A DNA stretch of 64,000 bases, from the NCBI RefSeq assembly GCF_900637905.1, contig NZ_LR134472.1, positions 744,001 to 808,000 of the forward strand. The letters run 5' to 3'. The first letter of the stretch is position 1; each line of letters begins with the position of its first letter. The translations under genes were made by a program, and so were the position numbers. Under the pieces are notes generated by a model. It was not told where the DNA came from and did not search any database. It was given only the letters and a program-made list of their open reading frames with translations. This DNA is from Parvimonas micra. Lineage in GTDB: Bacteria > Bacillota > Clostridia > Tissierellales > Peptoniphilaceae. This document shows, piece by piece, positions 34,301 through 54,967 of the stretch.

Positions 34301-34463
34301 TGAAAAACCAAAGGTGCCAAATACAGAATCTAAAAAACCGGTTACGTTACCCAAAACAGGTGATAGTTCAAATGTGTTTTTATACAGTTTGGCTCTTGGG
34401 TTATCAAGTTTGGGCTTATTATCATTAGGATTCTTTAGAAGGAAAAGAACAAAAGAAAACTAA
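31392..34463 (+). CDS. LPXTG-anchored Cna-B repeat surface adhesin
   Basis: A 1023-aa wall-anchored protein. The signal peptide (1-28) is MKKKWSFVLALLMMLSMTVSS followed by ...VYAQ. An N-terminal acidic spacer precedes an adhesin region (~80-510), then a SpaA-like prealbumin fold (LSLKMLKTDKDTG, ~518). Three Cna-B modules follow (from ~647, ~737 and ~856), the last two separated by the near-identical linker TPMEPPxRDVKV. The end is LPKTG (~985), a hydrophobic span and RRKRTKEN. Lys and Asn/Glu positions suit intramolecular isopeptide bonds. The gene has no sortase neighbour, so a host sortase must anchor it. It is the main surface cargo of the nested element and probably mediates attachment. 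Confidence 0.92.
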   Translation: MKKKWSFVLALLMMLSMTVSSFSSLVYAQENDDDTNITSEVSDEDKTFLDESKTVEEESEKIEEIVAEKDEKLEVLKANNSPANRGELSLDDVTIDYFKIIDTTHENVEIDYRTSDQPDFVSYSEDPTKFSNDICDEGRASKITLKLGLHYNSDTPLQEGDSLVIPASYGGRLEDYVSQKLFDADNNELGTWEYKNGSVIIKFSGDYIRNNIVKKFTASFQTGEMRNLSDDMGKTFIKGERILVKGKLGKKDLISAYEKYYVQANHINKTNKSIGKFSSFTTDSQVEWGFSIYNDIYAHKTVGTNFNPYLLENNGQYPTKVHSGIYVEDTFFELTEAPSIKYINVCLSGITDDGKVISGYYAVPLPTTFFKKIDQADMTREEVKATLKHGEYCVYANPDGSFTLMLKMWDINDNDAPKYDDLPLIKSAGGVGNYLKKSDSQIFGNLSQDTIDKINQIYKDKTILNIDLVFSAQYVPAKEKTQFKNTAQITTNELGTKDFSATATLHPATGVADAPADPLSLKMLKTDKDTGADLSTGFNFELQTSADNGANWTKVNLDSSMVEIGTLNDDKTITPDAKGAIQVKKLTGGNMYRFVEKTHADGYQDLAINNEQPNDKDHPASANSRAVTVTTQGKGHVIVMYNVKPETVSVSIEKKWIGKELDSVRVYLYADGKEVTYKDLNKENDWKWTFNKCDKFDADGKEIEYTVKEVPVKGYDTTIEGNVADGFVIINKEQTPWTPMEPPRRDVKVTKDWKGADGNILEAPIGNIEVELYKDGNPTGIKKELTKDNNWTATFEKLAVYESITNQAIHKYTVKEVGENNNSIKIEDSWYKVSITGDMKDGFTITNMKQPPLTPMEPPTRDVKVIKDWKGIKPPVDKIEVELYKDGVATGIKKELTKANNWTTTFEKLKLSATLEGKAYEYTVKEVGENNGSVTFDDKTFKVSYEGNMKDGFKVINKYEKPKKPEPKEPEKPKVPNTESKKPVTLPKTGDSSNVFLYSLALGLSSLGLLSLGFFRRKRTKEN

Positions 34464-34607
34464 GTATTACAAATAGAGAAAGATATTATCTTAAGAAATG
34501 GAGGATTAAAAGAAATATGCAGGTGTAGATATGAAAACAAAGCAAAATTGCATATTAACACCATTTTCTCAGTAATAATTTCATAAAGATATCATTCTTT
34601 CAAGAAA

Positions 34608-34648
34608 GAGGACTTTTTACGCCAAAGTGTAGAAGTCCTCCTTTTTTA
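34608..34648 (+). terminator. Terminator after the adhesin gene
   Basis: GAGGACTTTTTAC / GTAGAAGTCCTC with loop GCCAAA, then CTTTTTT. Confidence 0.85.
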
Positions 34649-34691
34649 TTTTCAAAAGAAAAACAGAGAACTTAAAAAGGAGGATAACTAA

Positions 34692-35108
34692 GTGGCAAAG
34701 AAAGAATATTACCTTTATGTGAAAGGAAAAGCCGTACCTGTAAGTGAAGAAGTCTACAAAGCATACTGGAAGATAACAGAGCATGAAAAATATTTTCAAA
34801 GAAAAGATTGGAAGCATAATGTTATATCATTTTCAGCAATGGATCATGACGGACACTTTGAAGATAACATCATAGATGAAAAAATAGACTTAGAAAAAAT
34901 TGTAGAAGTAAAAATGCAAATTGAAGAACTTCATAAAGCATTAAATACTCTTACAAAAGAAGAACGAGAGTTAATGGAAGCCATCTTCTACAGAGAAGAA
35001 AGTCTAAGGTCAATCGGTAAAAAAGAAAAAGTAAGTTATCAATCAATCGCTAAAAGGAGGGATAAAATTTTAGAAAAACTAAGAGAGATATTAAAAGATA
35101 AAATCTAA
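34692..35108 (+). CDS. Sigma-70 region-4-like protein of mobile elements
   Basis: A 138-aa protein. The N-terminus (KKEYYLYVKGKAVPVSEEVYKAYWK) is typical of sigma-like proteins found in conjugative elements. The C-terminus (residues ~80-136) is a region 4 HTH: ALNTLTKEERELMEAIFYREESLRSIGKKEKVSYQSIAKRRDKI. It lacks a clear region 2, so it may regulate by binding DNA or the polymerase rather than act as a full sigma factor. The GTG start follows AAAGGAGGATAACTAA. A strong terminator follows. The target promoters are not known. Confidence 0.8.
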   Translation: MAKKEYYLYVKGKAVPVSEEVYKAYWKITEHEKYFQRKDWKHNVISFSAMDHDGHFEDNIIDEKIDLEKIVEVKMQIEELHKALNTLTKEERELMEAIFYREESLRSIGKKEKVSYQSIAKRRDKILEKLREILKDKI

Positions 35109-35116
35109 AAAGAGTG

Positions 35117-35154
35117 GAAAGGTTAAGCATTAAAAGATGCTTAGCCTTTCTTTC
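35117..35154 (+). terminator. Terminator after the sigma-like gene
   Basis: GAAAGGTTAAGCAT / ATGCTTAGCCTTTC with loop TAAAAG, then TTTC. Confidence 0.88.
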
Positions 35155-35159
35155 TGGAA

Positions 35160-35376
35160 AAAGCTGATGTAGAAAAAATACCTAAAAATGGTAAACTATT
35201 ATTAGTTAAAATGGACTAACTAATGGGATTAGATTATTAAATCGGAGAGGATTATTAGTTCGGAAATTAGATAAATTATCAAAAAAATTGAAATTATATC
35301 AAGCCATCTTGCAAATGTATTTAGTGCTTATAGGTATAGTAGCAATGATGAATTAGTATTTGCTAAGGAGTAGAGA
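35160..35376. other. Gap with a short gene relic
   Basis: From about 35,276 one frame reads DKLSKKIEIISSHLANVFSA and YRYSSNDELVFAKE before a stop at 35,373. It has no start codon or ribosome site, so it is probably the tail of a lost gene. The family is unknown. No other feature is seen. Confidence 0.4.
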
Positions 35377-36075
35377 ATGAATCAATACTTAAAAGAAACC
35401 CAAATGCTGGATTTTTCAAATCCGAGTATTCAAAAACTAATAGAGGTTAAGTGTTGGAAAGAACAAAATAAATTTGACTGTCTTAAATCTATTTATAATT
35501 TTGTAAGAGATGATGTTGATTTTGGATACAATATTGATGACTGTATTCCTGCGTCCAAAGTTCTTGAAGACGGGTATGGTCAATGTAATACGAAAGGAAC
35601 TCTATTTATGGCATTACTTCGTGCTTGCGAAATTCCTTGCCGTGTGCATGGATTTACAATAGATAAGCAATTACAAAAGGGAGCGATGAACGGTTTTGTT
35701 TATAAAAATGCTCCTCAGAATATATTTCACAGTTGGGTTGAAGTATATTTTGAAGATAAATGGTATGAACTGGAGGCGTTCATACTGGATCAAAAATATT
35801 TATCCAAGTTGCAGAAAAAATTTGCAAGCTGTGCAGGTTATTTTTGCGGTTATGGTGTTGCAGTAAAAGATTTTCAGCATCCAATAATTGATTTTGACAG
35901 AAACAACACCTATATACAAAGTGAGGGAATTAAGCAGGATTTTGGCGTATATGATTCTCCGGATGAATTATTGAAAAATCATCATCAAAATCTATCGTCA
36001 ATAAAAACTTTTGCATACAGATATTTAGGACGGCATTTGATGAATCGTAATGTAAAGAAAATAAGAAATTCCTAA
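35377..36075 (+). CDS. Transglutaminase-like cysteine protein
   Basis: A 232-aa protein with the transglutaminase-like fold. The Cys motif LEDGYGQCNTKGTLFMALLRA (Cys ~69), the His motif IFHSWVEVYFEDKWYELEAF (His ~118) and an acidic residue in YELE complete the triad. No signal peptide is present, so it should act in the cytoplasm, as a peptidase, amidase or crosslinking enzyme. The ATG follows AAGGAGTAGAGA. It is followed by a relic and an SRPBCC protein on the same strand, which suggests an imported cassette in the nested element. The substrate is not inferable. Confidence 0.8.
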   Translation: MNQYLKETQMLDFSNPSIQKLIEVKCWKEQNKFDCLKSIYNFVRDDVDFGYNIDDCIPASKVLEDGYGQCNTKGTLFMALLRACEIPCRVHGFTIDKQLQKGAMNGFVYKNAPQNIFHSWVEVYFEDKWYELEAFILDQKYLSKLQKKFASCAGYFCGYGVAVKDFQHPIIDFDRNNTYIQSEGIKQDFGVYDSPDELLKNHHQNLSSIKTFAYRYLGRHLMNRNVKKIRNS

Positions 36076-36097
36076 AGTTTGAATTTGCAAGTAGAAA

Positions 36098-36268
36098 GCT
36101 AACAATCACATTTCAGCTGATATTGTAGTGCCTTCTCTTCACCATAATGGTAAAGATAGGCATCAGAAATAATGCCCTAAATGTACTGTATTTTTGTCCG
36201 AAGGCTTATCAAGAAAAATAATAGGAAATTATGTTGAGGCGATTGCTCGCTTTAGAAACGAGGAATGA
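36098..36268 (+). pseudogene. Relic of an unidentified zinc-ribbon-like gene
   Basis: One frame encodes ANNHISADIVVPSLHHNGKD, then RHQK, a TAA, CPKCTVFLSEGLSRKIIGNY and VEAIARFRNEE. A Cys pair CPKC and clear amino-acid-like composition point to real former coding sequence with at least one stop and no start. It lies between the transglutaminase and SRPBCC genes. Confidence 0.5.
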
Positions 36269-36271
36269 TAA

Positions 36272-36733
36272 ATGAAAATGACTGTTAAAAAGACTTCCGT
36301 CTTTCCGGAAAATCAAAGAAATATTTTTGAATTATTACAAAGATTTGATACACTTGCATATATTGCCAAGCCTTACGCAATATTCAAAAGTGTTGATAAA
36401 CAAACAAAACTGGTTTGGGAAGTTGGCAAAAGTTTCTCTTTCGATTTTAAGATGTTCGGCTTCATTACACTCGGCGTTCATGTTATCAATGGTAGGGAAT
36501 TAAGTCCGAGCAATATCTATACAAATGAGTGCAATCCGTTTTGCCCCGTATGGAATCATCGGATTATTCTTAACGAAACGGCTGAAGGCAAAACTGAATA
36601 CACCAACGAGGTAAAAATTGAGGCAGGATGGAAAACACCATTTGTATATTTGTGGGCAAAAGCATTTTACTCGCATAGGCAAAAGAAATGGATAAAGCTA
36701 CTTAATAAGCTATCTGAAAAGAGCATGTGTTAA
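36272..36733 (+). CDS. SRPBCC-like ligand-binding domain protein
   Basis: A 153-aa single-domain protein. The strand pattern and the ending (WNHRIILNETAEGKTEYTNEVKIEAG, then a long terminal helix WAKAFYSHRQKKWIKLLNKL) fit the START/SRPBCC fold, which binds hydrophobic ligands. The assignment rests on fold-like pattern only. The ATG overlaps the end of the preceding relic frame by a few bases, and a terminator follows at 36,782. With the transglutaminase gene it probably forms one cargo unit. Confidence 0.5.
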   Translation: MKMTVKKTSVFPENQRNIFELLQRFDTLAYIAKPYAIFKSVDKQTKLVWEVGKSFSFDFKMFGFITLGVHVINGRELSPSNIYTNECNPFCPVWNHRIILNETAEGKTEYTNEVKIEAGWKTPFVYLWAKAFYSHRQKKWIKLLNKLSEKSMC

Positions 36734-36781
36734 AAAATCACGGTTTCATATAATCAATAAATCGATAAAGACTAACACAGT

Positions 36782-36813
36782 AACAGTAAATCAAAAAAGG
36801 TTTACTGTTTTTT
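36782..36813 (+). terminator. Terminator after the SRPBCC gene
   Basis: AACAGTAAA / TTTACTGTT with a 10-base loop, followed by TTTT. Confidence 0.85.
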
Positions 36814-36845
36814 ATTTGCTTGAAATTTGAAAGGAGAAAGAAAAA

Positions 36846-37175
36846 ATGAAGAAAGAAAACACATTACAGGAAGTACAAGAACAAATTTTTGAACTTCAGG
36901 AAGAAAGACAAAAGTGCGATGTAAAGCTGAAAAAATTACAAAATCAAGGTAAGAAATTAGAAAAACTTGCAAACGAAAAGGAACGAAAAAGAAGAAATCA
37001 TAGGCTCATACAAAGAGGCTTGATAGTAGAAAGAGTGATTGAAAATCCTCTAATGTTTACCAATGAGGAGATGGAAGAACTACTCAAAGTTGCTACAGAT
37101 ACAGAAAAATACAGACGAGCTTATGAAGAAATAATAAATAGGAAAGATATAGAAGATGAAACAGACATCAAGTAA
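36846..37175 (+). CDS. DUF3847 family mobilization accessory protein
   Basis: A 109-aa protein. A long coiled coil (LQEVQEQIFELQEERQKCDVKLKKLQNQGKKLE) is followed by KRRNHRLIQRGLIVERVI and a short acidic tail. This is the DUF3847 pattern found directly upstream of MobA/MobL genes. It is probably an oriT-binding or relaxosome accessory protein. The ATG follows GAAAGGAGAAAGAAAAA. The oriT lies ~30 bases downstream, which supports this role. Confidence 0.75.
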   Translation: MKKENTLQEVQEQIFELQEERQKCDVKLKKLQNQGKKLEKLANEKERKRRNHRLIQRGLIVERVIENPLMFTNEEMEELLKVATDTEKYRRAYEEIINRKDIEDETDIK

Positions 37176-37204
37176 ACAGAATAAAAAACCTTAGTTTTTT
37201 CAGA

Positions 37205-37290
37205 AGCTCCCTGCAAGGGCAAAAAGCTTCGCAGAACGCAAAGCACCCTTTAGGGTGTATAATTGCGCCCTTAGAAAATCTAAGGGATTT
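37205..37290 (+). other. oriT: Origin of transfer (oriT), MobQ type
   Basis: The core ATAATTGCGCCCTTAG (37,259-37,274) resembles the RSF1010-family nick region (TAAGTGCGCCCT), where MobQ relaxases cut. A perfect inverted repeat CACCCTttAGGGTG (37,244-37,257) is directly upstream, and a hairpin CCCTTAGAaaaTCTAAGGG (37,268-37,286) overlaps the core. A further hairpin CCCTgcaAGGG lies at ~37,209. The position just before mobA and after DUF3847 is the usual one. The exact nick base is not claimed. Confidence 0.8.
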
Positions 37291-37334
37291 TAGCAAGTCT
37301 TTGAAAACCAAAAACTTAATAAAAACATACGGAT

Positions 37335-37378
37335 AAAGCAGATAGGAAAAGATAGAAAAAATAGCCTGTCTGCTTTTT
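37335..37378 (+). terminator. Hairpin terminator or attenuator upstream of mobA
   Basis: AAAGCAGATAGG / CCTGTCTGCTTT over an 18-base A-rich loop, then TTCC. It lies between oriT and the mobA start, so it may attenuate mobA expression. Confidence 0.65.
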
Positions 37379-37433
37379 CCTTTACCTGAAAGCAATCCTA
37401 AAAACAAACAAAAAATGAAAGGAGCTTATATAG

Positions 37434-39068
37434 ATGGCAGAAACATTTCACTTTAGTATTTCTATGATAAGCAGAGGTAAGAGTAAATCGGCAGTTGCAA
37501 GTGCAGCATATATCTCTTGCGAGAAAATCAGAAATGAATGGGACGGAGAAGTTCACGATTACCATAATAAAAAGGGACTTTTACATTCAGAAATCTTCTT
37601 GCCGGAGAATGTCCCCATAGCATTAAAAGATAGAACTACTTTATGGAATAGCGTTGAACTAAATGAGAAAGCAAGCAATGCACAGCTTGCAAGAAACTTC
37701 ATTATTGCCTTACCGAAAGAATTATCCTTTGAAGAAAACAAGAAACTCATTACCGACTTTATTGGGAAAAATTTTGTGTCAAAAGGAATGATAGCAGACC
37801 TTGCAATCCATGATGAAAGTGATGAAGAAAATAATAATATCCATGCTCATATTATGACTACCCTCAGACCAATCAATGAAAAAGGAGAGTGGCAGGCAAA
37901 AAGCAAAAAAGAATATGTTCTTGATGAAAACGGAGAAAAGATAAAACTAAAAAGCGGTAACTACAAAACAAGAAAAGTAGAGCTGACGGACTGGAACGAT
38001 AAAGGCAACGCAGAGAAATGGAGAGAGAATTTTGCGAGTCTTTGTAATCAGTATTTAGAAAAAAATCATCAGGAAAAGAGAGTGGATCATCGTTCCTACA
38101 AAAGACAAGGTATAGAAGAAATTCCAACCATTCATTTAGGAGCAAGTGCCAGTGGCTTAGAGAAAAAAGGAATCGAAACCGACAAAGGAAACATCAACCG
38201 AGAAATCAAAAAGCATAACTTCTTAGTAAAAGCCATTAAGAACAAGATAAAAGAAATCACCTCTTGGATAGACTCTTTACTTGGAAATCTACAAGCTAAA
38301 TATGATGAGTATAAACAGACCAAGAAAGATGAACTGGAGAACAAAGCAGAACTCTTTAACCTCTATGAGTATATTTCTATCTACAACGAGATACAGGGAG
38401 AAAAAACAAAAAATTTATCCTACTATGGACAGATAAAAAAGGGAAATGCAGACCTAAAGAGATTTGTAAAAGCAATCTACTATTTGAAAGATAATCATCT
38501 TCAAACCATAGCAGACCTACAAGAAAAAGTCTTTGAACTGGCAAAGCAAAGTAAAAATATAAGTGGTGATATTCAAGATAAAACACAAAGAATTAAAGAC
38601 CTAAATCAGTGTGCAAGCTGCATAGACTCTATCAAAGAAAACAAAGAGGTCTATCAGGAATACAAAAGCAAAACCATATTAAAAGACAGCTTTTACAATT
38701 CCCATAAAAAAGAAATAGACAGATACCTAAGAGCAAGAAAGACCATAGAAAAATTCACCGGGACATCAGCCATAAAATTAAGTGATTGGCAAAAAGAAAT
38801 ATCAAGGCTTAAAAAAGAGATACAAGACTTAACCGAAGATAAAGCCAAAGTACAAGATGAATTTAAGCAGATAGACCATATCAAATATGCAGTAAAGATA
38901 GTCAATGATGAGTATGGAATAGACCTATCCATAGAGGTAGACAAGGCAATTAAGAGAGGAGATAAACCAAGTGTAATTGCACAACTGAAAAAATTCCAAG
39001 AGCAACAGGAAAAGATAGACCAGTACAAACAAAAAGTAAAAGAAAAATATACGGAACAAGAAAGATGA
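37434..39068 (+). CDS. mobA: MobA/MobL (MobQ) relaxase
   Basis: A 544-aa relaxase. The N-terminal domain starts AETFHFSISMISRGKSKSAVASAAYISC. The HUH metal motif HAHIMTTLRP (~residue 138) and the conserved NKEYVLDE/GNAEKWRENFASLCNQYLEKN region follow. The C-terminal half is coiled coil. It nicks one strand at the adjacent oriT, forms a tyrosyl-DNA link and leads the strand into a coupling protein. The nested element has no type IV channel of its own, so it must use a helper, most simply the ICE that hosts it. The ATG follows AAAGGAGCTTATATAG. Confidence 0.92.
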   Translation: MAETFHFSISMISRGKSKSAVASAAYISCEKIRNEWDGEVHDYHNKKGLLHSEIFLPENVPIALKDRTTLWNSVELNEKASNAQLARNFIIALPKELSFEENKKLITDFIGKNFVSKGMIADLAIHDESDEENNNIHAHIMTTLRPINEKGEWQAKSKKEYVLDENGEKIKLKSGNYKTRKVELTDWNDKGNAEKWRENFASLCNQYLEKNHQEKRVDHRSYKRQGIEEIPTIHLGASASGLEKKGIETDKGNINREIKKHNFLVKAIKNKIKEITSWIDSLLGNLQAKYDEYKQTKKDELENKAELFNLYEYISIYNEIQGEKTKNLSYYGQIKKGNADLKRFVKAIYYLKDNHLQTIADLQEKVFELAKQSKNISGDIQDKTQRIKDLNQCASCIDSIKENKEVYQEYKSKTILKDSFYNSHKKEIDRYLRARKTIEKFTGTSAIKLSDWQKEISRLKKEIQDLTEDKAKVQDEFKQIDHIKYAVKIVNDEYGIDLSIEVDKAIKRGDKPSVIAQLKKFQEQQEKIDQYKQKVKEKYTEQER

Positions 39069-39070
39069 AA

Positions 39071-39298
39071 TCCTAAAATAGGACAACATCTAGTAGGGAA
39101 TGAGCAAATTATTTAGTACTACAAACTTACGCACTATTTTGGTGCATAAGGCTGCGTACCCATTTTGGGAACACAGATATAAAGATGAGTCCCTGTTTTA
39201 GGGAAGCATATAGCTGGTGTCGTGTTTCACGATGGCAGATTTATAAGGATGCCCTGTTTTGGGGCGTGCTTACTATCAAGGGTGTCGTAAATCACGAC
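39071..39298 (+). repeat. Array of seven mini-hairpins with ~30-base period
   Basis: Seven short stem-loops (stems 4-6 bp, loops 3-5 bases) lie between mobA and rep: TCCTAaaaTAGGA (39,071), GCACTattttGGTGC (39,131), GTACCCattttGGGAAC (39,156), TCCCTgttttAGGGA (39,190), TCGTGtttCACGA (39,220), GCCCTgttttGGGGC (39,251) and GTCGTaaatcACGAC (39,284). After the first, spacing is 25-34 bases. The stems differ in sequence but keep base pairing, so it is the shape that is repeated. It could be a single-strand origin, Rep/relaxase binding sites or a structured leader RNA. Confidence 0.8.
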
Positions 39299-39366
39299 TT
39301 CCTTAAAAACCAAGAGGTGGTAATGATTTGTTACTTCCCTTTGCAATAAAAAGAGAGGAGAGAAAA

Positions 39367-40119
39367 ATGGCAGATAACAGAAGATACTATTGGTTAAAAC
39401 TGAAAGAAGATTTTTTTACAGATAAGAGAATAAAAAGGCTAAGAAAAATATCAGGAGGAGATACCTATACAATCATCTACCTCAAATTGCTTTTGCTTAG
39501 CCTAAAGGATAGTGGGAAACTGTATTATGACGGAGTAGAAACAGACTTTATCAAGGAGCTTGCATTAACGATTGATGAAACGGAAGATGATGTAATGGTT
39601 ACAGTAAATTATCTTGTAGCACAAGGATTGATGGAGATAATCACAGAAAATGACGAGTATTTTTTAACAGAAATCCCAAGTCTTATAGGTTCAGAAACAG
39701 CGTCTACAAGGCGTTCGAGGAAATCAAGAGGACAAAAAGCGTTGCAATGCAACACAAGTGCAACATCTTGCAACCTTTTGCAACAAAACCGCAACGGAGA
39801 GATAGAGATAGAGAAAGAGATAGATATAGAGTTAGAGAAAGAGGGGGAGAAAGAAAAAATATCCCCCTCCCTTTATGGAGAATATAAAAATGTTTCCTTA
39901 ACTGATGAAGAATATGGAAAATTAAAGGATAAAATGCAAGGTCATAGGGATAAAATGATAGAGAAGCTGTCAACCTATATGCAAAGCACAGGAAGAAACT
40001 ATAAAGACCATTATGCGACCTTAGTTCATTGGTACGAACAAGACAAAGGGAAATTAAAGGAGAGCAGTAAATCAAAAGTATATACCTTTGAAGATTATGA
40101 CAAGGGTGAACACTTGTAG
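39367..40119 (+). CDS. Replisome-organizer-like Rep protein of the nested element
   Basis: A 250-aa protein. The N-terminal winged-helix domain RRYYWLKLKEDFFTDKRIKRLRKISGG is of the phage replisome organizer type. A Glu/Lys-rich linker (IEIEKEIDIELEKEGEKEK) follows. The C-terminal domain (IEKLSTYMQSTGRNYKDHYATLVHWY, ending DYDKGEHL) is homologous to the end of the ICE RepA. The start is 39367, behind AGAGAGGAGAGAAAA; the open frame extends 13 codons upstream. It presumably drives replication of the excised circle. No helicase loader is encoded in the nested element. Confidence 0.8.
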   Translation: MADNRRYYWLKLKEDFFTDKRIKRLRKISGGDTYTIIYLKLLLLSLKDSGKLYYDGVETDFIKELALTIDETEDDVMVTVNYLVAQGLMEIITENDEYFLTEIPSLIGSETASTRRSRKSRGQKALQCNTSATSCNLLQQNRNGEIEIEKEIDIELEKEGEKEKISPSLYGEYKNVSLTDEEYGKLKDKMQGHRDKMIEKLSTYMQSTGRNYKDHYATLVHWYEQDKGKLKESSKSKVYTFEDYDKGEHL

Positions 40120-40279
40120 ACTTCGCATAAGACGGTGGAAAGGTGTTTTTAGAGCGTTAATGATAAAATAGGTATCAGATACGGCTAAAGTAAGAAATAA
40201 GCCTTAAAACGTATTTATCCATAAAATGTACTTTAAGTTATAAACAATCTAATAAATTTAATCATATTAGGAAAATAAG

Positions 40280-40362
40280 TTTTACTTAGCGAGGTGTTTT
40301 GCGGTATAAGTAAAATTAAAGTTTGAAAACTTTACTTAAAACTGTTATACTTATTCTAAGTA
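40280..40362 (+). promoter_or_regulatory. Promoter and operator palindromes of the second fic gene
   Basis: The promoter is TTGAAA (40323-40328), a 17-base spacer and TATACT (40346-40351). The perfect palindrome TACTTAttcTAAGTA (40,348-40,362) overlaps the -10. An outer pair TTTTACTTA / TAAGTAAAA (40,280-40,315) repeats the same half-site. This is the layout of a repressor with two operators. Confidence 0.75.
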
Positions 40363-40390
40363 AAATGGATTTAACTTAGGGGGTGATATT

Positions 40391-41539
40391 TTGAGATTAG
40401 AAAACAATAGAGCTGGACAGCTAAAGAGAATACAAAGTGATTACGAATGCTTTGTTCCACATAATTTAAAAGATATAAAATTAAATCTTGATAGTGAAAT
40501 AAATGCTTTAATCAATAAAGCGTATTTATTACTGGGAAGGTTAGATGGTATGGCAATAACTCTTCCAGATATTGATCTATTTGTGTCTATGTATGTTCAA
40601 AAAGAGGCTGTTATAAGTTCTCAAATAGAGGGAACACAAGCTTCTCTTGTTGATGTGCTGCAAAAAGATAGGGGAAGTGAAAAGATAAAGGATACTGAAG
40701 AAATTGTAAACTATATCAAAGCAACTCATTACGCATTTAAAAGACTGAATGAATTGCCATTATGTATGAGGCTGATTAAAGAAACCCACTCGGTTCTTTT
40801 GTCTAATGTTAGAGGAGAAGAAAAAATGCCGGGTGAATTTAGAAAATCACAAAATTGGATTGGACATGCAGGTTCAACCATAAATAATGCAAGCTTTATT
40901 CCGCCTTCACCTGATGAAATGGATATTTGCCTCAGCGATTTAGAAAAATATATACATGAAGATAGTGATATTTCAAACTTAATAAAGATAGCTCTAATTC
41001 ATTATCAATTTGAAACGATACACCCATTTTTAGATGGTAATGGAAGAATGGGTAGACTACTCATAATATTATATTTAAGAGAGCAAGGCTTGATTGAATA
41101 CCCTGTTCTTTATCTGAGTTATTTTTTCAAGAAAAATAGAAATAGATATTATGAACTTCTTAATAATATCCGTATTAAGGGGGAATTTGAAGAATGGATT
41201 AAATTTTTTATAGATGGAATTTGCGAAATATCTGAGGATGCAATCACTTCAATCCAAAAGATTATTGAGCTTAAGAAGAACGATATGGAGAAAATTCGAC
41301 AGTTTTCAAGCGGTAATATTTCAAATCTTCTTTTGGTATACGAATATCTATTGAAACACCCTTTTGTAGAAGCGGAGGATATTAAAAATTTAGTGAATGT
41401 CAGTAAACCTACTGTCAATAAACTTTTAGATAATTTAATGGATATGGAAATAATAGAGCTTGTAGAAGATAAAAAAAGGTACAGACAATATGTATATAAA
41501 AAATATGTAGATATTCTTTCAGAGGGAACAATGCTGTAA
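40391..41539 (+). CDS. Fic family protein with Fic-N domain and C-terminal HTH
   Basis: A 382-aa protein. The inhibitory motif VISSQIEGTQASLVDVL (~residues 75-92) lies before a complete active site HPFLDGNGRMGR (~212-223). A C-terminal winged helix ends it (VEAEDIKNLVNVSKPTVNKLLDNLMDMEIIE). It is predicted to modify a protein hydroxyl with AMP under self-inhibition. The TTG start is preceded by AGGGGGTGATATT. The operators upstream suggest self-repression through the HTH. The same architecture is seen in the chromosomal Fic at 12,185, but the sequences are only distantly alike. Confidence 0.88.
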   Translation: MRLENNRAGQLKRIQSDYECFVPHNLKDIKLNLDSEINALINKAYLLLGRLDGMAITLPDIDLFVSMYVQKEAVISSQIEGTQASLVDVLQKDRGSEKIKDTEEIVNYIKATHYAFKRLNELPLCMRLIKETHSVLLSNVRGEEKMPGEFRKSQNWIGHAGSTINNASFIPPSPDEMDICLSDLEKYIHEDSDISNLIKIALIHYQFETIHPFLDGNGRMGRLLIILYLREQGLIEYPVLYLSYFFKKNRNRYYELLNNIRIKGEFEEWIKFFIDGICEISEDAITSIQKIIELKKNDMEKIRQFSSGNISNLLLVYEYLLKHPFVEAEDIKNLVNVSKPTVNKLLDNLMDMEIIELVEDKKRYRQYVYKKYVDILSEGTML

Positions 41540-41572
41540 GAATAAAAATTTAAAAGAATAAAACTATTTAAG

Positions 41573-41608
41573 GCGATTAGAAAAGCTAAAAATTCTAATC
41601 GCTTTTTT
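41573..41608 (+). terminator. Terminator after the second fic gene
   Basis: A perfect stem GCGATTAGAA / TTCTAATCGC with a 10-base loop, followed by TTTTTT. Confidence 0.9.
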
Positions 41609-41635
41609 GATTGCAACAAACAGGAGGGAAACTAT

Positions 41636-41821
41636 ATGCACGAAAACAGAAATGAACATAATACAGGAACAAAGACCATAAAGAAGATTGGAAAGGCAAC
41701 TTATGAGGTTGTAGTCCATTTTAATGAGAATGCGACTGAAACTATGCAAGATAAATTAAAAAGGATAATGCTTAGGGAAATGGAGCGAGAAAAAGATAAA
41801 AAAATCCATAAAAATGATTAG
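41636..41821 (+). CDS. tnpW: Transposon-encoded protein TnpW
   Basis: A 61-aa protein with the TnpW pattern: KTIKKIGKATYEVVVHFNEN (~17-36), then ETMQDKLKRIMLREMERE. TnpW is the small conserved protein of Tn4451-like elements and ends within ~20 bases of the right terminus here. Its role is not established; an accessory role in excision is one possibility. The ATG follows AGGAGGGAAACTAT. Its presence at the opposite end from TnpX frames the nested element. Confidence 0.82.
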   Translation: MHENRNEHNTGTKTIKKIGKATYEVVVHFNENATETMQDKLKRIMLREMEREKDKKIHKND

Positions 41822-41838
41822 AAAGTCCTTGACAAGTT

Positions 41839-42645
41839 GTTACAGGAAAAACTGCCAAATCTATTCTTATCTCTTGTGGTGCAAGGCTTGCTCCTTTTGA
41901 TATTCATGAACTTAGGGACTTGATGAAAGAAGATGAACTTGAGCTTGATACACTGGGAGATAGAAAAACAGCACTATTTGTTATTATCTCCGATACCGAT
42001 GATACCTTTAACTTTGTGGTGTCTATTATGTATTCACAGTTATTTAATCTCTTATGTGATAAAGCCGATGATGTATATGGCGGAAGATTACCTGTTCATG
42101 TGAGGTGCTTACTTGATGAATTTGCAAACATCGGCTTAATTCCAAAGTTTGAAAAGCTCATAGCGACAATAAGATCAAGAGAGATTTCAGCGAGTATTAT
42201 TTTACAAGCACAATCTCAGTTAAAGGCAATCTATAAAGACAACGCCGATACAATCGTAGGTAACTGTGACAGTACCCTGTTTCTGGGTGGAAAGGAAAAG
42301 ACAACACTTAAAGAACTTTCTGAAACACTTGGAAAAGAAACTATCGACCTGTATAACACATCAGAAACAAGAAGTAATCAAAAGTCGTTTGGACTTAACT
42401 ATCAAAAGACAGGTAAGGAACTGATGAGCCAAGATGAAATAACTGTCATGGACGGAAGCAAATGTATCTTTCAGCTTAGAGGCGTCAGACCTTTTCTTTC
42501 GGATAAGTATGATATTACAAAGCATAAGAACTATAAGCTGCTTGAGGATTATGACAAGAAGAATGTGTTTGACATAGAAAGCTATATGAAGCGAAAAGGT
42601 AAAGCAAAGATGAATAGAGAAACCGTTATTACGAAGATAGTGTAA
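41839..42645 (+). pseudogene. VirD4/TraG coupling protein, C-terminal part (interrupted)
   Basis: The frame opens with VTGKTAKSILISCGARLAPF, DIHELRDLMKEDELELDTLG, and continues through Walker B VHVRCLLDEFANIG, SREISASIILQAQSQLKAIY and GNCDSTLFLGGKEKTTLKEL to SYMKRKGKAKMNRETVITKIV. It matches the second half of VirD4 from clostridial ICEs and joins the N-terminal half without loss of frame. No promoter or start of its own is evident. A TTG at 41920 could allow a headless product, which would lack the Walker A motif. A clean excision should recreate an intact ~615-aa gene. Confidence 0.92.
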
Positions 42646-42797
42646 TAGATTACAAAATATGGTATAATAAAAATATCATAAATTATTTTGTATTGTTACC
42701 TGTAATTTTAATCTTGTTATCATGTGTTTCTGTCAGCCTAACAAAGAAACTTACTGAAACTGTTGATTTTAAAATCACATTGAGGGGGGGACTTATT

Positions 42798-42854
42798 ATG
42801 GAAATGATAAGAAATATGGGTGGATGCGGCACATTTCGGGATGGCTCCATATGA
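42798..42854 (+). CDS. Possible 18-aa peptide with strong Shine-Dalgarno
   Basis: The ATG at 42798 lies 7 bases after a GAGGGGGGG run and encodes MEMIRNMGGCGTFRDGSI before TGA. It is too short for family assignment and may be a leader peptide for the following ssb-virB block, or chance. The rest of this gap (42,646-43,117) holds a TATAAT at 42,662, a tRNA-like end and a terminator. Confidence 0.3.
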   Translation: MEMIRNMGGCGTFRDGSI

Positions 42855-42926
42855 AAAAAGAAACATAGGTTGAATTACATTTAACATAGATTTGTGCTGG
42901 GGGTTCAAATCCCCCGCATCCCGCCA
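42838..42926 (+). other. tRNA-like 3' end (T arm, acceptor and CCA) without a cloverleaf
   Basis: GGGGG-TTCAAAT-CCCCC (42,899-42,915) is a perfect T arm. GCATCCC, a G discriminator and CCA follow. GGGATGG at 42,838 could pair with the acceptor except at the last pair. The 54 bases between form no D or anticodon arm. The 3' half resembles a tRNA-Ser end (G discriminator). It is probably a captured tRNA 3' fragment, such as an old attachment site. Confidence 0.55.
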
Positions 42927-43052
42927 ATTATATAGTTTTAGTGACAGCAAGTCTAAAAAAAGATTTGCTGTTTTTTATTACCTTAAAATCAGGAGGTAAG
43001 ATGCTAAGGATTAGAAGTCCCACTTAAAGGAAAATTAAATAGTAATAGTATC

Positions 43053-43090
43053 AGCGATTGGAAAAGTAATACTTCTGGTCGCTTTTTTAT
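43053..43090 (+). terminator. Terminator before ssb
   Basis: AGCGATTGGAA pairs with TTCTGGTCGCT (several G-T pairs), followed by TTTTTT. Confidence 0.7.
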
Positions 43091-43117
43091 TGAATTGAAA
43101 AGGAGAAATTTAAAAAG

Positions 43118-43429
43118 ATGAAACAAGAAATGATTAACATCAACGCCAACTTATTGGCAGAGCCTACTTTCTCAAGTTTTGAAAATGAAGGAGAGAAAGT
43201 GGAAGTTGCAAACTTCACGCTTGTAAAAAAGTACGGAAAGGGAAAGGAGTACATCAACTGTGCAGCCTATGGAGAAAAAGCTGAGAAAGCAAAGGACTTT
43301 GAAAAAGGCGATTTAATTCATATCTTTGGTTACTTTAAGAAGCGTGAAAAAGAGGGAAAGACTTACAAAAACTTTGTAGTGAAGTCATATAACAAGATTG
43401 AAAAGAAAGAAGAAAACGAGGAGGAATAA
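43118..43429 (+). CDS. ssb: Single-stranded DNA-binding protein of the ICE
   Basis: A 103-aa OB-fold protein. INANLLAEPTFSSFENEGEKVEVANFTLV is followed by INCAAYGEKAEKAKDFEKGDLIHIFGYFKKRE, the SSB strand order, and an acidic tail (EKKEENEEE) replaces the usual DDDIPF tip. It is shorter than chromosomal SSB and typical of ICE-borne copies that coat the transferred strand. The ATG follows AAAAGGAGAAATTTAAAAAG. The next gene starts 3 bases after its stop, so it heads the mating-channel operon. Confidence 0.85.
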   Translation: MKQEMININANLLAEPTFSSFENEGEKVEVANFTLVKKYGKGKEYINCAAYGEKAEKAKDFEKGDLIHIFGYFKKREKEGKTYKNFVVKSYNKIEKKEENEEE

Positions 43430-43432
43430 CTT

Positions 43433-43648
43433 ATGGCATTTTTTACACAGGCAGTTAATGTATTAAAGATTTTGGTTATGGCAGTAGGTGCAGGACTTGG
43501 AGCATGGGGCGTTATCAACCTGATGGAAGGATATGGTAATGACAATCCCGGTGCTAAGAGCCAAGGTATTAAGCAGCTTATGGCTGGAGGAGGTATCGTT
43601 CTTATCGGACTTAAGCTCATTCCACTACTTGCCAATGTACTCAATTAA
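43433..43648 (+). CDS. Maff2 family / VirB2-TrbC-like pilin subunit
   Basis: A 71-aa protein with two hydrophobic helices: VLKILVMAVGAGLGAWGVINLM (~9-30) and GGGIVLIGLKLIPLLANVL (~52-70). The linker GYGNDNPGAKSQGIKQLM is typical of the Maff2 family of Tn1549-like ICEs. The position before VirB6 is that of the VirB2-like channel/pilin subunit. No long signal peptide is seen. Membrane insertion is expected. Confidence 0.85.
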   Translation: MAFFTQAVNVLKILVMAVGAGLGAWGVINLMEGYGNDNPGAKSQGIKQLMAGGGIVLIGLKLIPLLANVLN

Positions 43649-43667
43649 GAAGAAAAGGAGAGCTTAG

Positions 43668-44531
43668 ATGTTTGGAATATTCGACAAGATAGAAGAATTC
43701 TTTAAGGAGCTTCTACTGGGCGGTATCCAAGCAAACTTAGAGTCCATGTTTCTTGACATCAACGACAAAGTTGGTGCGGTTGCAACAGATGTAGGTAAAA
43801 CGCCTATGGGGTGGAACGGAGATGTATTTGCCTTTATCAAAAGCATTAACGATTCCGTTATCATTCCAATAGCGGGACTAATCATCACAGCAGTTCTTTG
43901 TATCGAGCTTATCAATATGGTAATGCAAAAGAACAATATGCACGATACAGATACCTTTGAATTTTTCAAGTACATCATCAAGATGTGGATTGCTGTATGG
44001 TTAGTATCCCATGCCTTTGAGTTTTCAATGGCAGTTTTTGATGTGGCACAGCACATGGTAAATAAGGCGGCAGGGGTGATAAATACCTCTGCCACCGTTT
44101 CCGGAGATCAGATAGTGGCAATGATGGATACCCTAAAAGAAAAGGGACTTGGAGAACTTGTTATGATTCTCTTTGAAACCTCACTCATCAAGGTTGCTAT
44201 ACAGGTAATATCCGTTGTGATTATGCTTGTAGTTTACGGAAGAATGTTTGAGATTTATGTTTACTCATCGGTTTCAGCTATTCCTTTTGCCACAATGGGA
44301 AACAAAGAGTGGGGACAGATTGGTACAAACTACATCAAAGGACTATTTGCACTTGGACTACAAGGACTCTTTTTAATGGTTTGTCTTGGAATTTACGCAG
44401 TTTTAGTTAAGACGATTAAGATAACAGATATACACACAAGTACCATGACGATACTTGGCTATGCGGTTTTGCTGGGGTTAATGATGCTAAAGAGCGGAAC
44501 ACTGGCCAAAAGCGTATTAAATGCACACTAA
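43668..44531 (+). CDS. VirB6/TrbL-like conjugation channel protein
   Basis: A 287-aa polytopic protein. An amphipathic N-terminus (FGIFDKIEEFFKELLLGGIQANLE) is followed by about six spans, including VIIPIAGLIITAVLCIELINMVM and MWIAVWLVSHAFEFSMAVFDV. The motif ATMGNKEWGQIGTNYIKGLFALGLQG is conserved in the CD1112/VirB6-like family. It forms the inner-membrane part of the Gram-positive type IV channel. The ATG follows AAAAGGAGAGCTTAG. Confidence 0.87.
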   Translation: MFGIFDKIEEFFKELLLGGIQANLESMFLDINDKVGAVATDVGKTPMGWNGDVFAFIKSINDSVIIPIAGLIITAVLCIELINMVMQKNNMHDTDTFEFFKYIIKMWIAVWLVSHAFEFSMAVFDVAQHMVNKAAGVINTSATVSGDQIVAMMDTLKEKGLGELVMILFETSLIKVAIQVISVVIMLVVYGRMFEIYVYSSVSAIPFATMGNKEWGQIGTNYIKGLFALGLQGLFLMVCLGIYAVLVKTIKITDIHTSTMTILGYAVLLGLMMLKSGTLAKSVLNAH

Positions 44532-44550
44532 AAAAGAAAGGAAAGATAGT

Positions 44551-44814
44551 ATGAACAAAAGAAAAACAACATTTACAGCAGTAATAATAGTCGCAGGCGT
44601 TATGGCGGTAATTGATAGAATCAGACTTCATAACAAGGTAGAAGAATTGGAAGAAAGGACACAGGACATTGGTTGCTGCCATAATGATTTTTGCTTAATG
44701 CAGCAAAGATATAACAAGAATACAGATGAACAACTTGCAATTATTCAGGATGAAATCGGATCTGTATATGAACACTTTGAGGAGCTGTCAAAGGGTAAAG
44801 AAGATGGGAGGTAA
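44551..44814 (+). CDS. Small membrane-anchored ICE protein of unknown function
   Basis: An 87-aa protein with one N-terminal span (TTFTAVIIVAGVMAVIDRIRL), a helical stretch and a CCHNDFC cysteine cluster. The ATG at 44551 follows AAAGGAAAGATAGT. An upstream ATG at 44521 would overlap the virB6 stop and lacks a good ribosome site. The place between VirB6 and PrgI suggests a channel accessory role. No family is recognised. Confidence 0.6.
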   Translation: MNKRKTTFTAVIIVAGVMAVIDRIRLHNKVEELEERTQDIGCCHNDFCLMQQRYNKNTDEQLAIIQDEIGSVYEHFEELSKGKEDGR

Positions 44815-44817
44815 GAT

Positions 44818-45207
44818 ATGGCATATGTACCAATCCCTAAAGACTTAAATAGGGTAAAGACAAAGGTTGCTTTTAACCTAACGAAAAGGCAGCTCATAGG
44901 CTTCACACTTGCAGGACTGGTTGGAATACCAGTCTATTTATTTATGAGGAAGTTTGTGCCAAATGACATAGCTGTCATATTCCTTATCGTGTCCACGCTT
45001 CCTATCTTTTTCATCACACTATTTGAAAAGGACGGACTGACCTTTGAGAAATATTTTAAGCACATCTACCTTCATAAGTTTTATCAGCCAAAAAAGAGAG
45101 TGAGAAAGGAGGTTTACCTTGAACAAGAAAAGAAAAATTCAGCAAATAAAACTCATGCAAAACGAAAAGGTATTGAGAAGTCAAAAGCGAGACTTAAAGA
45201 AAAGTAA
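44818..45207 (+). CDS. PrgI family protein (VirB3-like)
   Basis: A 129-aa protein. The N-terminus MAYVPIPKDLNRVKTKVAFNLTKRQLIGF is the PrgI signature. Two spans follow (~31-48 and ~53-72), then a basic tail. PrgI takes the VirB3 place next to VirB4 in Gram-positive systems. The last 89 bases are also the start of virB4 in another frame, an unusually long overlap that makes the two proteins translationally linked. The ATG follows GGGAGGTAAGAT. Confidence 0.88.
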   Translation: MAYVPIPKDLNRVKTKVAFNLTKRQLIGFTLAGLVGIPVYLFMRKFVPNDIAVIFLIVSTLPIFFITLFEKDGLTFEKYFKHIYLHKFYQPKKRVRKEVYLEQEKKNSANKTHAKRKGIEKSKARLKEK

Positions 45208-47548
45208 TTGCAAGTCAAAAAAAGATAAGGGAGGAATCCTTGACCTTATCTTTAAGAAAGAACCGAAAAGATATACGGTAGAAGATACCATTCCCTATCT
45301 AAGGCTTTTAAAAAGCGGAATATGCCAGCTTGATGAAAGGCACTTCAGTAAAAGTATAGCCTTTCAGGACATTAACTATCAGCTTGCCTTAGATGAAGAT
45401 AGGGACTTGATTTTTAATCAATTTGCAAACTTCCTAAACTCTTTTGATCCAAGTATCAGCATTGAGTTTTCATATATCAATCAGCTCGGACGAAACGAAG
45501 AAATGAAGTCGGCAATTCAGATACCGGATAAAAAGGACGGTTTCGATGATATACGCTTTGAATTTAGAGAGATGCTTAAAAGCCAGATTGTAAAGGGAAA
45601 TAACGGACTTAAAAAATCAAAGTATGTAACCTTTACAGTGGAAGCGGATAATTTAGAACAGGCAACATCAAAACTTGAAAGACTGGAGATAGATATATTA
45701 TCGAGTCTTAAAAGTATGGGAGTAAGAGCAGAAAGCCTTATCGGAGAAGAAAGACTAAAGGTTCTTCACGATATTTTAAATCCAAATAAAACATTTGAAT
45801 TTTCCTATAAAGACCTAAAGAAAAGAGAAAGCACAAAGACATATATTGTGCCTGATGAGTTTAACTTTACACCGAGTAGATACTTTAAGTTTGGCAAATT
45901 CATTGGAGCAACAAGTCATTTTCAAATCCTTGCCAGTGAGCTTTCAGATAGGATGTTATCCGAGTTTTTGGATATTGACGATAACATCAATATTTCCTTT
46001 CATATTAGGGCAATCGACCAATCGGAAGCCATTAAGATGGTAAAACGAAAAAACACTGATATTGATAAGATGAAGATTGAGGAAAATAAGAAAGCGGTAA
46101 GAAGCGGTTATGATATGGACATTCTTCCATCGGACTTAATTACCTATGGTGAGGATGTAAAGAGCCTCTTAAAAGACTTGCAGACAAGAGATGAGCGAAT
46201 GTTTGTAGTAAGTATCGTCTTTATGAATTTTGCAAGGACAGTGCAAAAGCTTGATAACACGATTGCTCAAATAAGCTCTATTGCAAATAAGCATAACTGT
46301 AAGCTGAAAAGACTTGACCATTCTCAGGAACAAGGTTTAGTGAGCATGCTGCCTCTTGGTGTAAATAAGATTGAAATAGATAGAGGACTGACAAGCTCAT
46401 CAACGGCAGTATTTATGCCATTTACCACAGAGGAGCTTTTTATCAATTCAAGTAATAGTCTTTACTACGGACTAAATGCCCTAAGCCATAACCTGATTAT
46501 GGCAGATAGAAAGAAATTAAAGAACCCAAACGGTCTAATCCTCGGAACTCCGGGCAGCGGTAAATCCTTTAGTGCCAAAAGAGAAATGGCAAATGCGATT
46601 TTAGTAACAGATGATGATGTGATTATCTGCGATCCGGAAGGAGAGTATGGAAACCTCGTAAGGCAGTTTAAGGGAGAAGTCATTAAGGTCAGCAGTAAGT
46701 CAAAGGATTACCTGAATCCCCTTGATATAAACATGAACTACGGGGATGGGGATGCACCGCTGAAAGATAAGGCAAACTTTATCATGAGTATGCTTGAGCT
46801 TGTAGTAGGTGGCAGTGGTCTTACGGCAGAAGAAAAGTCTGTTATTGATAGGTGCCTTCCTAAAATCTATGAAAAGTATTTTGAACATCCTACTCCTGAC
46901 AATATGCCGATACTTCAAGACCTATACGATATGTTAAAAGGACAGGAAGAAAAGGTTGGTAAGAAGCTGGCAACGGAGATGGAAATCTATGTATCGGGGT
47001 CTCTCAATGTCTTTAATCACAGGTCAAATGTGGATTTAAATAAGAAGCTCCTTTGTTTTGATATTAAAGAACTTGGAAGCCAGTTAAAGAAAATAGGAAT
47101 GCTTGTCATTCAGGATCAGGTGTGGAACAAGGTATCCCAAAACAGAGGAAACAAGGCTACAAGATACTATATCGACGAGTTTCATTTACTTTTAAAAGAT
47201 GAGCAGACAGCATCGTATTCGGTTGAGATTTGGAAGAGGTTTAGAAAATGGGGAGGTATCCCGACAGGTATCACACAAAATGTCAAAGACCTACTTATGA
47301 GTAAGGAGATAGAAAATATCTTTGATAATACGGACTTTGTCTTAATGCTAAATCAGGCTTCGGGAGATAGAGAAATCTTAGCAAGGAAACTTAAAATCTC
47401 ACTTCCACAGCTCAGATATGTTACTAATTCAAATGAAGGTGAGGGACTCTTATTCTTTGGAAATACCATTGTGCCTTTCCTTGATAAGTTTCCGAAAGAT
47501 ACAATCCTTTATCAGAAGATGACTACCAAGCCGGAAGAAGTGAGGTAG
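45119..47548 (+). CDS. VirB4-like conjugation ATPase
   Basis: An 809-aa ATPase that powers the mating channel. The N-terminal domain (~50-440) carries the CagE/VirB4 pattern (YIVPDEFNFTPSRYFKFGKF). Walker A is LGTPGSGKSFSAKRE (~474), and Walker B lies in ATRYYIDEFHLLL. The end is SLPQLRYVTNSNEGEGLLFFG. The TTG start at 45119 follows GAAAGGAGGTTTACC, inside the prgI gene. The first ~40 residues are strongly basic because of the overlap with the basic tail of PrgI. The size fits the family. Confidence 0.92.
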   Translation: MNKKRKIQQIKLMQNEKVLRSQKRDLKKSNCKSKKDKGGILDLIFKKEPKRYTVEDTIPYLRLLKSGICQLDERHFSKSIAFQDINYQLALDEDRDLIFNQFANFLNSFDPSISIEFSYINQLGRNEEMKSAIQIPDKKDGFDDIRFEFREMLKSQIVKGNNGLKKSKYVTFTVEADNLEQATSKLERLEIDILSSLKSMGVRAESLIGEERLKVLHDILNPNKTFEFSYKDLKKRESTKTYIVPDEFNFTPSRYFKFGKFIGATSHFQILASELSDRMLSEFLDIDDNINISFHIRAIDQSEAIKMVKRKNTDIDKMKIEENKKAVRSGYDMDILPSDLITYGEDVKSLLKDLQTRDERMFVVSIVFMNFARTVQKLDNTIAQISSIANKHNCKLKRLDHSQEQGLVSMLPLGVNKIEIDRGLTSSSTAVFMPFTTEELFINSSNSLYYGLNALSHNLIMADRKKLKNPNGLILGTPGSGKSFSAKREMANAILVTDDDVIICDPEGEYGNLVRQFKGEVIKVSSKSKDYLNPLDINMNYGDGDAPLKDKANFIMSMLELVVGGSGLTAEEKSVIDRCLPKIYEKYFEHPTPDNMPILQDLYDMLKGQEEKVGKKLATEMEIYVSGSLNVFNHRSNVDLNKKLLCFDIKELGSQLKKIGMLVIQDQVWNKVSQNRGNKATRYYIDEFHLLLKDEQTASYSVEIWKRFRKWGGIPTGITQNVKDLLMSKEIENIFDNTDFVLMLNQASGDREILARKLKISLPQLRYVTNSNEGEGLLFFGNTIVPFLDKFPKDTILYQKMTTKPEEVR

Positions 47549-47551
47549 CCT

Positions 47552-49684: not shown

Positions 49685-49695
49685 GAGGTAACAAT

Positions 49696-49935
49696 TTGAA
49701 AAAGGAACTGATAGCAGTAAAAAATAGAATAAAGAAGTTAAAGGATAAAAAGGCTCTGATTGATGAAGAATTGGAGCCTTTATTCATTCGTGAAGAAGAG
49801 CTTGAAAATGAAGAAATCATTGCCATTTGCAGAAAGAATAACATCACAATCAGCGATTTGATGGCAAAGGTAAACAGACAAAAAGCAGAAATGAAAAAGG
49901 AGAAAACAAATGAAAACCAGTTTGAAAAAGAATAA
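49696..49935 (+). CDS. DUF4315 family protein
   Basis: A 79-aa helical protein: KNRIKKLKDKKALIDEELEP and EEIIAICRKNNITISDLMAKV. This is the DUF4315 pattern found between the CHAP and DUF4366 genes of Tn1549-like ICEs. It is probably a coiled-coil accessory protein; the function is not known. The TTG start follows AGGAGGTAACAAT. The last 26 bases overlap the next gene. Confidence 0.8.
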   Translation: MKKELIAVKNRIKKLKDKKALIDEELEPLFIREEELENEEIIAICRKNNITISDLMAKVNRQKAEMKKEKTNENQFEKE

Positions 49936-51448: not shown

Positions 51449-51450
51449 AC

Positions 51451-51518
51451 GCACCTAAAAACATATTATTTTGGGTGCAAAGTTAGGGCGGGAGAGTAAC
51501 ATCTTTCGCCCTATTTTG
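51451..51518 (+). other. Two consecutive hairpins before topB
   Basis: GCACC / GGTGC (51,451-51,478) and TAGGGCG / CGCCCTA (51,484-51,513), the latter followed by TTTT. They may terminate or attenuate the channel operon ahead of topB. Confidence 0.55.
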
Positions 51519-51542
51519 ATTTATAACAGGAGGAAAACACAG

Positions 51543-53249: not shown

Positions 53250-53333
53250 GACAGCACTAATTTCAGCGTGGAAAAAATGCTCTAAAAATGCTATAATATA
53301 AGCAATTTATTTGTAATTGTTAGGAGAATTAAG

Positions 53334-54931: not shown

Positions 54932-54967
54932 AAAGGTGATTAGAGTAAAATCTAACCACCTTTTTTG
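54932..54967 (+). terminator. Terminator upstream of the giant methylase/helicase gene
   Basis: AAAGGTGATTAGA / TCTAACCACCTTT with one mismatch and loop GTAAAA, then TTTT. Confidence 0.8.

Follow-up and report, generated by a model that had tools for sequence, protein, structure and literature searches.

A modular array of short hairpins between mobL and rep of a Parvimonas micra conjugative element, tentatively read as an RNA leader of rep

Organization of the mobL–rep interval

The window analyzed was a 64,000-nucleotide stretch of Parvimonas micra DNA (NZ_LR134472.1, positions 744,001 to 808,000), and its coordinates are used throughout. Folding of the window revealed a row of hairpins at 39063–39342, in the interval from the end of mobL to the beginning of rep, comprising eight clear units and one degenerate unit (Table 1). 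The flanking genes, which the original prediction named mobA and rep, were refined using Pfam to those of a MobA/MobL relaxase and a Phage_rep_org_N protein. Each unit spans 25–30 bases and consists of an outer stem of 3–5 bp, a small internal loop, an inner stem of mostly 4–7 bp, and an A/T-rich loop, and the linkers between adjacent clear units from h3 to h9 are 1–8 nt long. The seven palindromes originally reported were all present and represent the inner parts, or tips, of these two-step hairpins. As for the reported spacing of about 25–34 bases for six of the seven, the last six start 28–33 bases apart, while the first two start 60 bases apart because the degenerate unit h2 sits between them; the array itself is larger than first described. 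Moreover, h2 (39095–39113) is 79% complementary to h9 (39322–39340) and resembles its reverse complement, h6 (39219–39232) is 86% complementary to h8 (39285–39298) over 14 bases, and an alternative long-range fold enclosing h3–h8 was predicted.

Table 1. Positions of the genes, the hairpin units, and the candidate origin of transfer in the window.
Feature	Position	Strand	Description
Candidate oriT	37226–37271	+	Inverted repeat, then TAATTGCGCCCT (37260–37271)
mobL	37434–39068	+	MobA/MobL relaxase, 544 aa; PF03389, E 1.5e-91
h1	39063–39091	+	mobL stop codon within the outer stem
h2	39094–39120	+	Degenerate in the window; well paired in L110, L157, L046, and L005
h3	39126–39150	+	Predicted hairpin
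h4	39152–39176	+	Predicted hairpin
h5	39185–39209	+	Predicted hairpin
h6	39214–39238	+	Predicted hairpin
h7	39244–39272	+	Predicted hairpin
h8	39278–39304	+	Predicted hairpin
h9	39313–39342	+	Absent from the original prediction; final hairpin ahead of the rep ribosome-binding site
rep	39367–40119	+	Replisome-organizer type initiator (Phage_rep_org_N); PF09681, E 4.4e-19
Seven palindromes	39071–39083, 39131–39145, 39159–39169, 39190–39204, 39220–39232, 39251–39265, 39284–39298		

Downstream of rep, a Fic/DOC gene (40391–41539) is followed by a coupling-protein ORF (41920–42645), which matches only positions 251–442 of the 468-position T4SS-DNA_transf profile, the N-terminal half being outside the ORF. 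A 2913-aa ORF lies farther downstream (54965–63706).

Hairpin formation compared with chance

Four perfect-stem hairpins (stem of at least 5 bp with at least 2 G–C pairs, loop of 3–7) were counted in 39069–39345, while 500 shuffles averaged 0.71 and never exceeded 3. The folding z of 39061–39345 was −6.7 for the + strand and −5.85 for the − strand as RNA, and −5.6 and −5.0, respectively, with DNA parameters; in each case, 0 of 200 shuffles folded as well. As a control, the final 285 bases of mobL gave a local-fold z of +0.35. Of the 200-base stretches in the window that hold at least four local hairpins, the array had the lowest summed + strand energy at −74.7 kcal/mol, followed by −52.2 kcal/mol. 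The hairpins are real and are not explained by chance.

Protein coding in the array was rejected, as the + strand ORFs at 39100–39201 and 39185–39349 are interrupted by stops in relatives, the former in L004 and the latter in L002 and L005. The original prediction named no described element of this design, and the searches here agree with it. Rfam release 15 gave 0 matches at the gathering score in the whole window (the five sub-threshold matches in 39000–39400 had E values of 1.6 or worse), tRNA and tmRNA searches found nothing, and searches of open-licence literature yielded no description of such an array. The array looks like an undescribed control element.

Distribution and modularity among relatives

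Among 22 MobL loci at 83–100% identity, the window included, the array was found in five; in the other 17, the mobL stop lies only 2 bases ahead of the rep start. The array is therefore accessory, and the homologues without hairpins that the original prediction would have counted against it do not make it unreal. Short arrays were detected at 3 of 49 further MobL 3′ ends, and no array followed mobL within 330 bases in eight other loci (L086–L093). Starting from Rep homologues, arrays were identified in at least 7 of 50 loci (L041, L043, L045, L046, L053, L057, and L058). The hosts were varied and included Peptoniphilus, Eggerthia, Mogibacterium, and Anaerococcus, among others.

Broader searches gave few additional cases. 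A DNA search matched 10 of 199 relatives, including the window genome, and at least L009 and L010 among these are not arrays. The L009 match (1501–1531) is a 31-base, 94% copy of h6, present as a single unit inside an ORF that we take to be phage antirepressor-like, and it is either a coincidence or a mobile unit. A covariance model built from six arrays matched 5 of 391 class genomes, one of them (L158) judged to be chance, and 6 of 130 family genomes, including the window genome. Further searches, counted with their query genomes, matched 2 of 398 (L165 judged to be chance), 1 of 148, 2 of 147, 2 of 118 (L376 not confirmed), and 4 of 119 genomes. The matches in L010, L158, and L165 were judged not to be arrays, and a search of L376 with the L157 array found nothing. 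The pattern GGTGTCGTNNNTCACGA returned single matches among the matches listed, and a second pattern search for arrays found none. No array match was obtained in a DNA search of the plasmid collection or in E. coli genomes, and the single match in the phage DNA search covered the rep start only. Among viral contigs, no locus with Rep type 1 was found; for Rep type 2, 80 of 102 loci were kept, and the upstream regions of all 80 were hairpin-scored, with few read by eye. One of these viral loci, L176, has an array of the L002 type.

Clusters of hairpins also occur in L018, L024, L054, L061, and L063 as well as near further ends of relatives; these were regarded as background, and the cluster at 991–1190 of L041 is its oriT region. 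The MobQ plasmids L166–L173 showed high hairpin scores throughout most records, which are more GC-rich, and no regular array followed mobL in the three stretches inspected (L166, L167, and L173); L171 and L172 were inspected there in part. In pAPRE01 (L171), a short h9-like array lies after the PcfB gene and ahead of rep.

The number of units in relatives ranged from two to nine, whole units having been gained and lost. In arrays of the window type, the order h1 to h9 is kept and the number varies: L008 has h1 and h8; L108, L380, and L382 have h1 and h3; L110 and L378 have h1, h2, and h3; and L006 has all units except h5–h7. In L058, the h3–h4 pair is apparently duplicated and h7 and h8 are missing, while in L157 a deletion from the h4 loop to the h5 loop has produced a fused hybrid unit, the arms of which still partly pair. 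As judged by eye, the boundaries of gain and loss are mostly in linkers or loops, with the exception of L046, which retains a scrap of h3. It is conceivable, but doubtful, that such sequence-unrelated mini-hairpins of equal shape form a new modular class acting as a counted structure, with units added, deleted, fused at their arms, or inverted as a block; its function would need only hairpins ahead of rep, as RNA or as transferred ssDNA.

Selection on the fold

The covarying stems of the original prediction were a comparison of different units within one molecule, which is not covariation; homologous units were compared instead. Alignments A3 and A5 comprised 6 and 10 of the arrays found, respectively, and L058 was omitted from A5 because it was misaligned in A4. 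Across the 10 distinct arrays, pairing holds in 89.9% of 606 cells, a value reached by 13 of 500 shuffles. With slid partners, 36–48% of cells pair, in a control that favors a structure derived from these same sequences. Changes on both sides occurred in 6 of 84 pairs compared with a shuffle mean of 3.8 (reached by 29 of 500), the covariation score was 0.072 compared with 0.067 (reached by 28 of 500), and the 29 further pair types were below the shuffle mean of 30.1. In the separate count of pair changes described below, 14 of 91 pairs carried a double change after the misassigned rows h5 of L006 and h9 of L004 were removed, and 18 before. Strict column covariation in the aligned arrays is modest, with high pairing but few double changes. 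The earlier view that the units have structure more than sequence in common is supported in the homologous arrays and in a strongly diverged one.

In addition, the observed substitutions were re-placed randomly within each unit, leaving out h2, h5 of L006, and h9 of L004. The real arrays folded better in 7 of 8 cases. On the + strand, the p values of the seven were 0.082, 0.129, 0.060, 0.10, 0.0005, 0.086, and 0.018, two of which are below 0.05; combined over the 7 arrays, p was 1.6e-5, the arrays being related and hence not independent. The − strand values ranged from 0.0035 to 0.39, with three below 0.05, so protection is about equal on both strands. In the eighth array, L004, which has a DUF1016/YhcG gene after it, the fold was unprotected (p 0.78).

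Pair changes were also compared between strands. There were 84 G–U and 27 A–C cells, but the reference was the + strand fold, which builds in most of this excess. When only pairs that are Watson–Crick in the reference were counted, 40 G–U and 25 A–C cells remained (p 0.08), corresponding to 20 and 19 distinct events; therefore, the pair changes show no strand preference. The folding energy of the + strand RNA was lower than that of the − strand in all 10 arrays, with L053 read inverted.

Compared with L002 or L005, eight of the nine units in the window are 76–97% identical and h2 is 53% identical, while single units of L058, L157, and L046 are less identical to the window than those of L002 and L005. 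Against the third codon positions of mobL, h8 is 94% identical versus 54% in L157, and h1 is 97% versus 58% in L058; some units, such as h2 (53–69%), are not kept better than these positions. The array could be a leftover of repeated duplication and deletion that has little function and is kept as harmless. Its accessory distribution, the modest strict covariation, and the weak folds in L004/L011 and L007 (described below) agree with this, but substitutions tend to avoid hairpin breakage, several units are far better kept than the codon positions even if h2 is not, and the fused L157 unit still partly pairs. A leftover is considered the least probable of the explanations weighed here.

Neighboring genes and orientation of the array

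The upstream neighbor of the array is mobL or, in single relatives, DUF1016/YhcG (L002), DUF3801 (L053), or PcfB (L171); in L002, a short segment adjoining the array looks by eye like the 3′ end of mobL. Downstream, either of two Rep types or, in L004, L006, and L007, DUF1016/YhcG is found. According to Pfam, the extra genes near the mobL–rep interval of L002, L004, L006, and L007 are DUF1016/YhcG nucleases, and extra genes were also present there in L041, L056, L097, L102, L120, and L137–L139. The L007 array, which lies close to a gene for ribosomal protein S4, is possibly a relic.

The local-fold z of ten rep-adjacent arrays was −3.4 to −7.6, while the DUF1016-adjacent arrays gave −1.6 (L004; L011, −1.5), −2.5 (L007), and −5.6 (L006); the comparison was made post hoc on few arrays, and z is affected by length. 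In L053, the diverged array is block-inverted relative to rep and a mobL remnant, which keeps its usual direction, and h2, h5, h8, and h9 match on the minus strand. The inverted array folds on the rep strand too (z −5.5) because it is palindromic, and a terminator-like hairpin (2929–2958) lies between it and rep.

The original prediction had considered an array of binding sites for Rep or the relaxase. Rep binding is disfavored because the same array precedes either Rep type and because candidate iterons are located within rep. Specifically, iteron-like TGCAAC sites occur at 39741–39784 on the + strand, four direct and 10–11 bp apart plus one inverted, and these are a candidate replication origin. 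Relaxase binding is disfavored because the units are unlike in sequence and the candidate oriT, located elsewhere, contains a hairpin of its own. Alternatively, the units may be structured binding sites of a protein, encoded by the element or the host, that recognizes the shape of hairpins in DNA or RNA whatever their orientation. Such a protein would fit the constant shape of units that differ in sequence, the h2/h9 and h6/h8 complementarity, and the similar protection of both strands, and the L053 inversion would be neutral to it. However, no gene type is constant among the neighbors examined (mobL, DUF1016, DUF3801/PcfB, and the two Rep types), and this explanation is considered unlikely.

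Candidate oriT and the transferred strand

The candidate oriT is the best of 21 window matches to TAAGTGCGCCCT, which we take to be the nic motif of RSF1010/pIP501, with 1 mismatch where up to 3 were allowed; as 20.4 matches were expected by chance, the count itself is no evidence. The repeat and nic core are also present ahead of mobL in L022 and L041, the MobL of the latter being 56% identical. Nicking polarity was assumed to be as in RSF1010, and if so, the + strand, which is the mRNA strand, would also be the one transferred from this candidate oriT.

The array might act on transferred ssDNA, as the original prediction had suggested. The relaxase would nick oriT, the + strand would enter the recipient 5′ end first with the array 1.8 kb behind, and the hairpins would resist SSB and allow host primase or RNA polymerase to prime the second strand, like sso1 of ICEBs1. 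In the cited account, sso1 lies between the relaxase gene and the next gene, is about 200 bp long with three predicted stem-loops, and causes no conjugation defect when deleted alone (PMC4595007). The array resembles it in position just after the relaxase gene, in size (about 200–280 bp), in having several predicted stem-loops, and in being dispensable in some contexts, the comparison resting on position, size, and multi-hairpin nature; the harmless sso1 deletion fits an accessory array. Unlike sso1, the array consists of many short regular hairpins of variable number, is missing from most close relatives, and is inverted in one. The non-random DNA fold of the + strand and the varied hosts are consistent with such an ssDNA element. 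On the other hand, the array is missing from 17 of 22 close relatives whose relaxase is similar, arrays can be as small as two hairpins, and the L053 array is inverted while its mobL remnant is not. An ssDNA role is rather unlikely, but it is the main rival of the favored explanation.

Favored explanation

A cis-acting RNA leader within the mobL–rep mRNA, which would uncouple rep from mobL and tune rep expression, is tentatively favored, and an RNA leader was also among the readings of the original prediction. The reasons are mainly that the arrays are adjacent to rep, genes that nearly touch are turned into genes with a spaced leader, and the folds are weak in two of the three lineages in which the array is displaced from rep. 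The array would presumably be transcribed as a structured RNA spacer, each unit folding independently while the mRNA emerges. The row holds the mobL stop tens to about 300 bases away from the start of rep, and this spacing would uncouple rep translation from that of mobL and give the rep message its own 5′ leader, the stability or translation of which may depend on the presence and perhaps the number of hairpins. We infer the effect on rep and any consequence for copy number. In ten tabulated arrays with either Rep type, the last hairpin lies shortly ahead of the rep ribosome-binding site. The protection of the fold in 7 of 8 arrays, the lower + strand RNA energy in all 10 arrays, and the stops that interrupt the two short ORFs in relatives also agree with a leader. 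When the rep start was included in the predicted fold, 3–5 of the 5 ribosome-binding bases were paired in 4 of 7 arrays; in the other 3, all were unpaired, which counts against an RNA leader. The inverted array of L053, the fold kept in L006 despite DUF1016 downstream, the G–U excess that mostly vanished on recount, and the roughly equal protection of the minus strand also count against it.

Terminator-like hairpins with T runs were found by a scan in leaders a short distance ahead of genes (36782–36809 and 42943–42972 in the window) and, by eye, just ahead of rep in L050, L051, L059, L060, L174, L175, L177, and L178. These leader hairpins suggest possible attenuation or antitermination in this ICE family. 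In 38700–39500, no + strand intrinsic terminator (GC hairpin and T run) was found, and two weak sites were present on the − strand.

The array could also be a cis-acting RNA for processive antitermination of the transfer operon, binding RNA polymerase so that later terminators are read through. The precedent is canT of Tn916, a 452-nt multi-hairpin cis-acting element of an ICE that is most likely RNA and orientation-specific; it lies between orf8 and xis and, in the cited sections, is not described as a modular array (PMC11658703). By description, the array is likewise multi-hairpin and within a conjugation operon, and + strand terminator-like sites follow it, e.g., at 42943–42972 and 51484–51513, with 19 sites on both strands of 34400–54000 compared with 9.1 expected. 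However, the array is modular and at a different place, 17 of 22 close relatives lack it, and the inversion in L053 contrasts with the orientation specificity of canT. Antitermination is considered distinctly unlikely.

Comparison with other structured elements and implications

Single-strand promoters were also compared with the array. Frpo presents its −35 and −10 boxes within a fold, and the array shares with Frpo/ssi promoters its folding and its location within the leading region of a conjugative element. No promoter-like hexamer pair was found on either strand of 38700–39500 (0 compared with a shuffle mean of 3.0) in a consensus scan of the linear, not the folded, strands. The stem-loop arrays of TIGR-Tas, with their tandem palindromes of varying sequence, look similar, and TIGR-Tas was therefore considered. 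According to the cited text, TIGR arrays carry two 8–12-nt spacers with box C/D between palindromes (PMC12045711). This identity was rejected, as the linkers from h3 to h9 measure 1–8 nt and the Nop domain of the TIGR-Tas protein (PF01798) was found in 0 of 12 genomes, in a profile search that was positive in 4 of 14 controls and could miss a very diverged Nop domain.

Several genera of anaerobic commensals carry the conjugative element concerned. If the array sets rep expression, evolution could adjust copy number and transfer through the number of hairpins. If it works on the transferred strand instead, an ICE would have a structurally different means of starting its complementary strand, located where the sso of ICEBs1 lies. 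In both cases, the natural arrays of 2–9 units provide a ready-made series for testing a function that depends on structure only.
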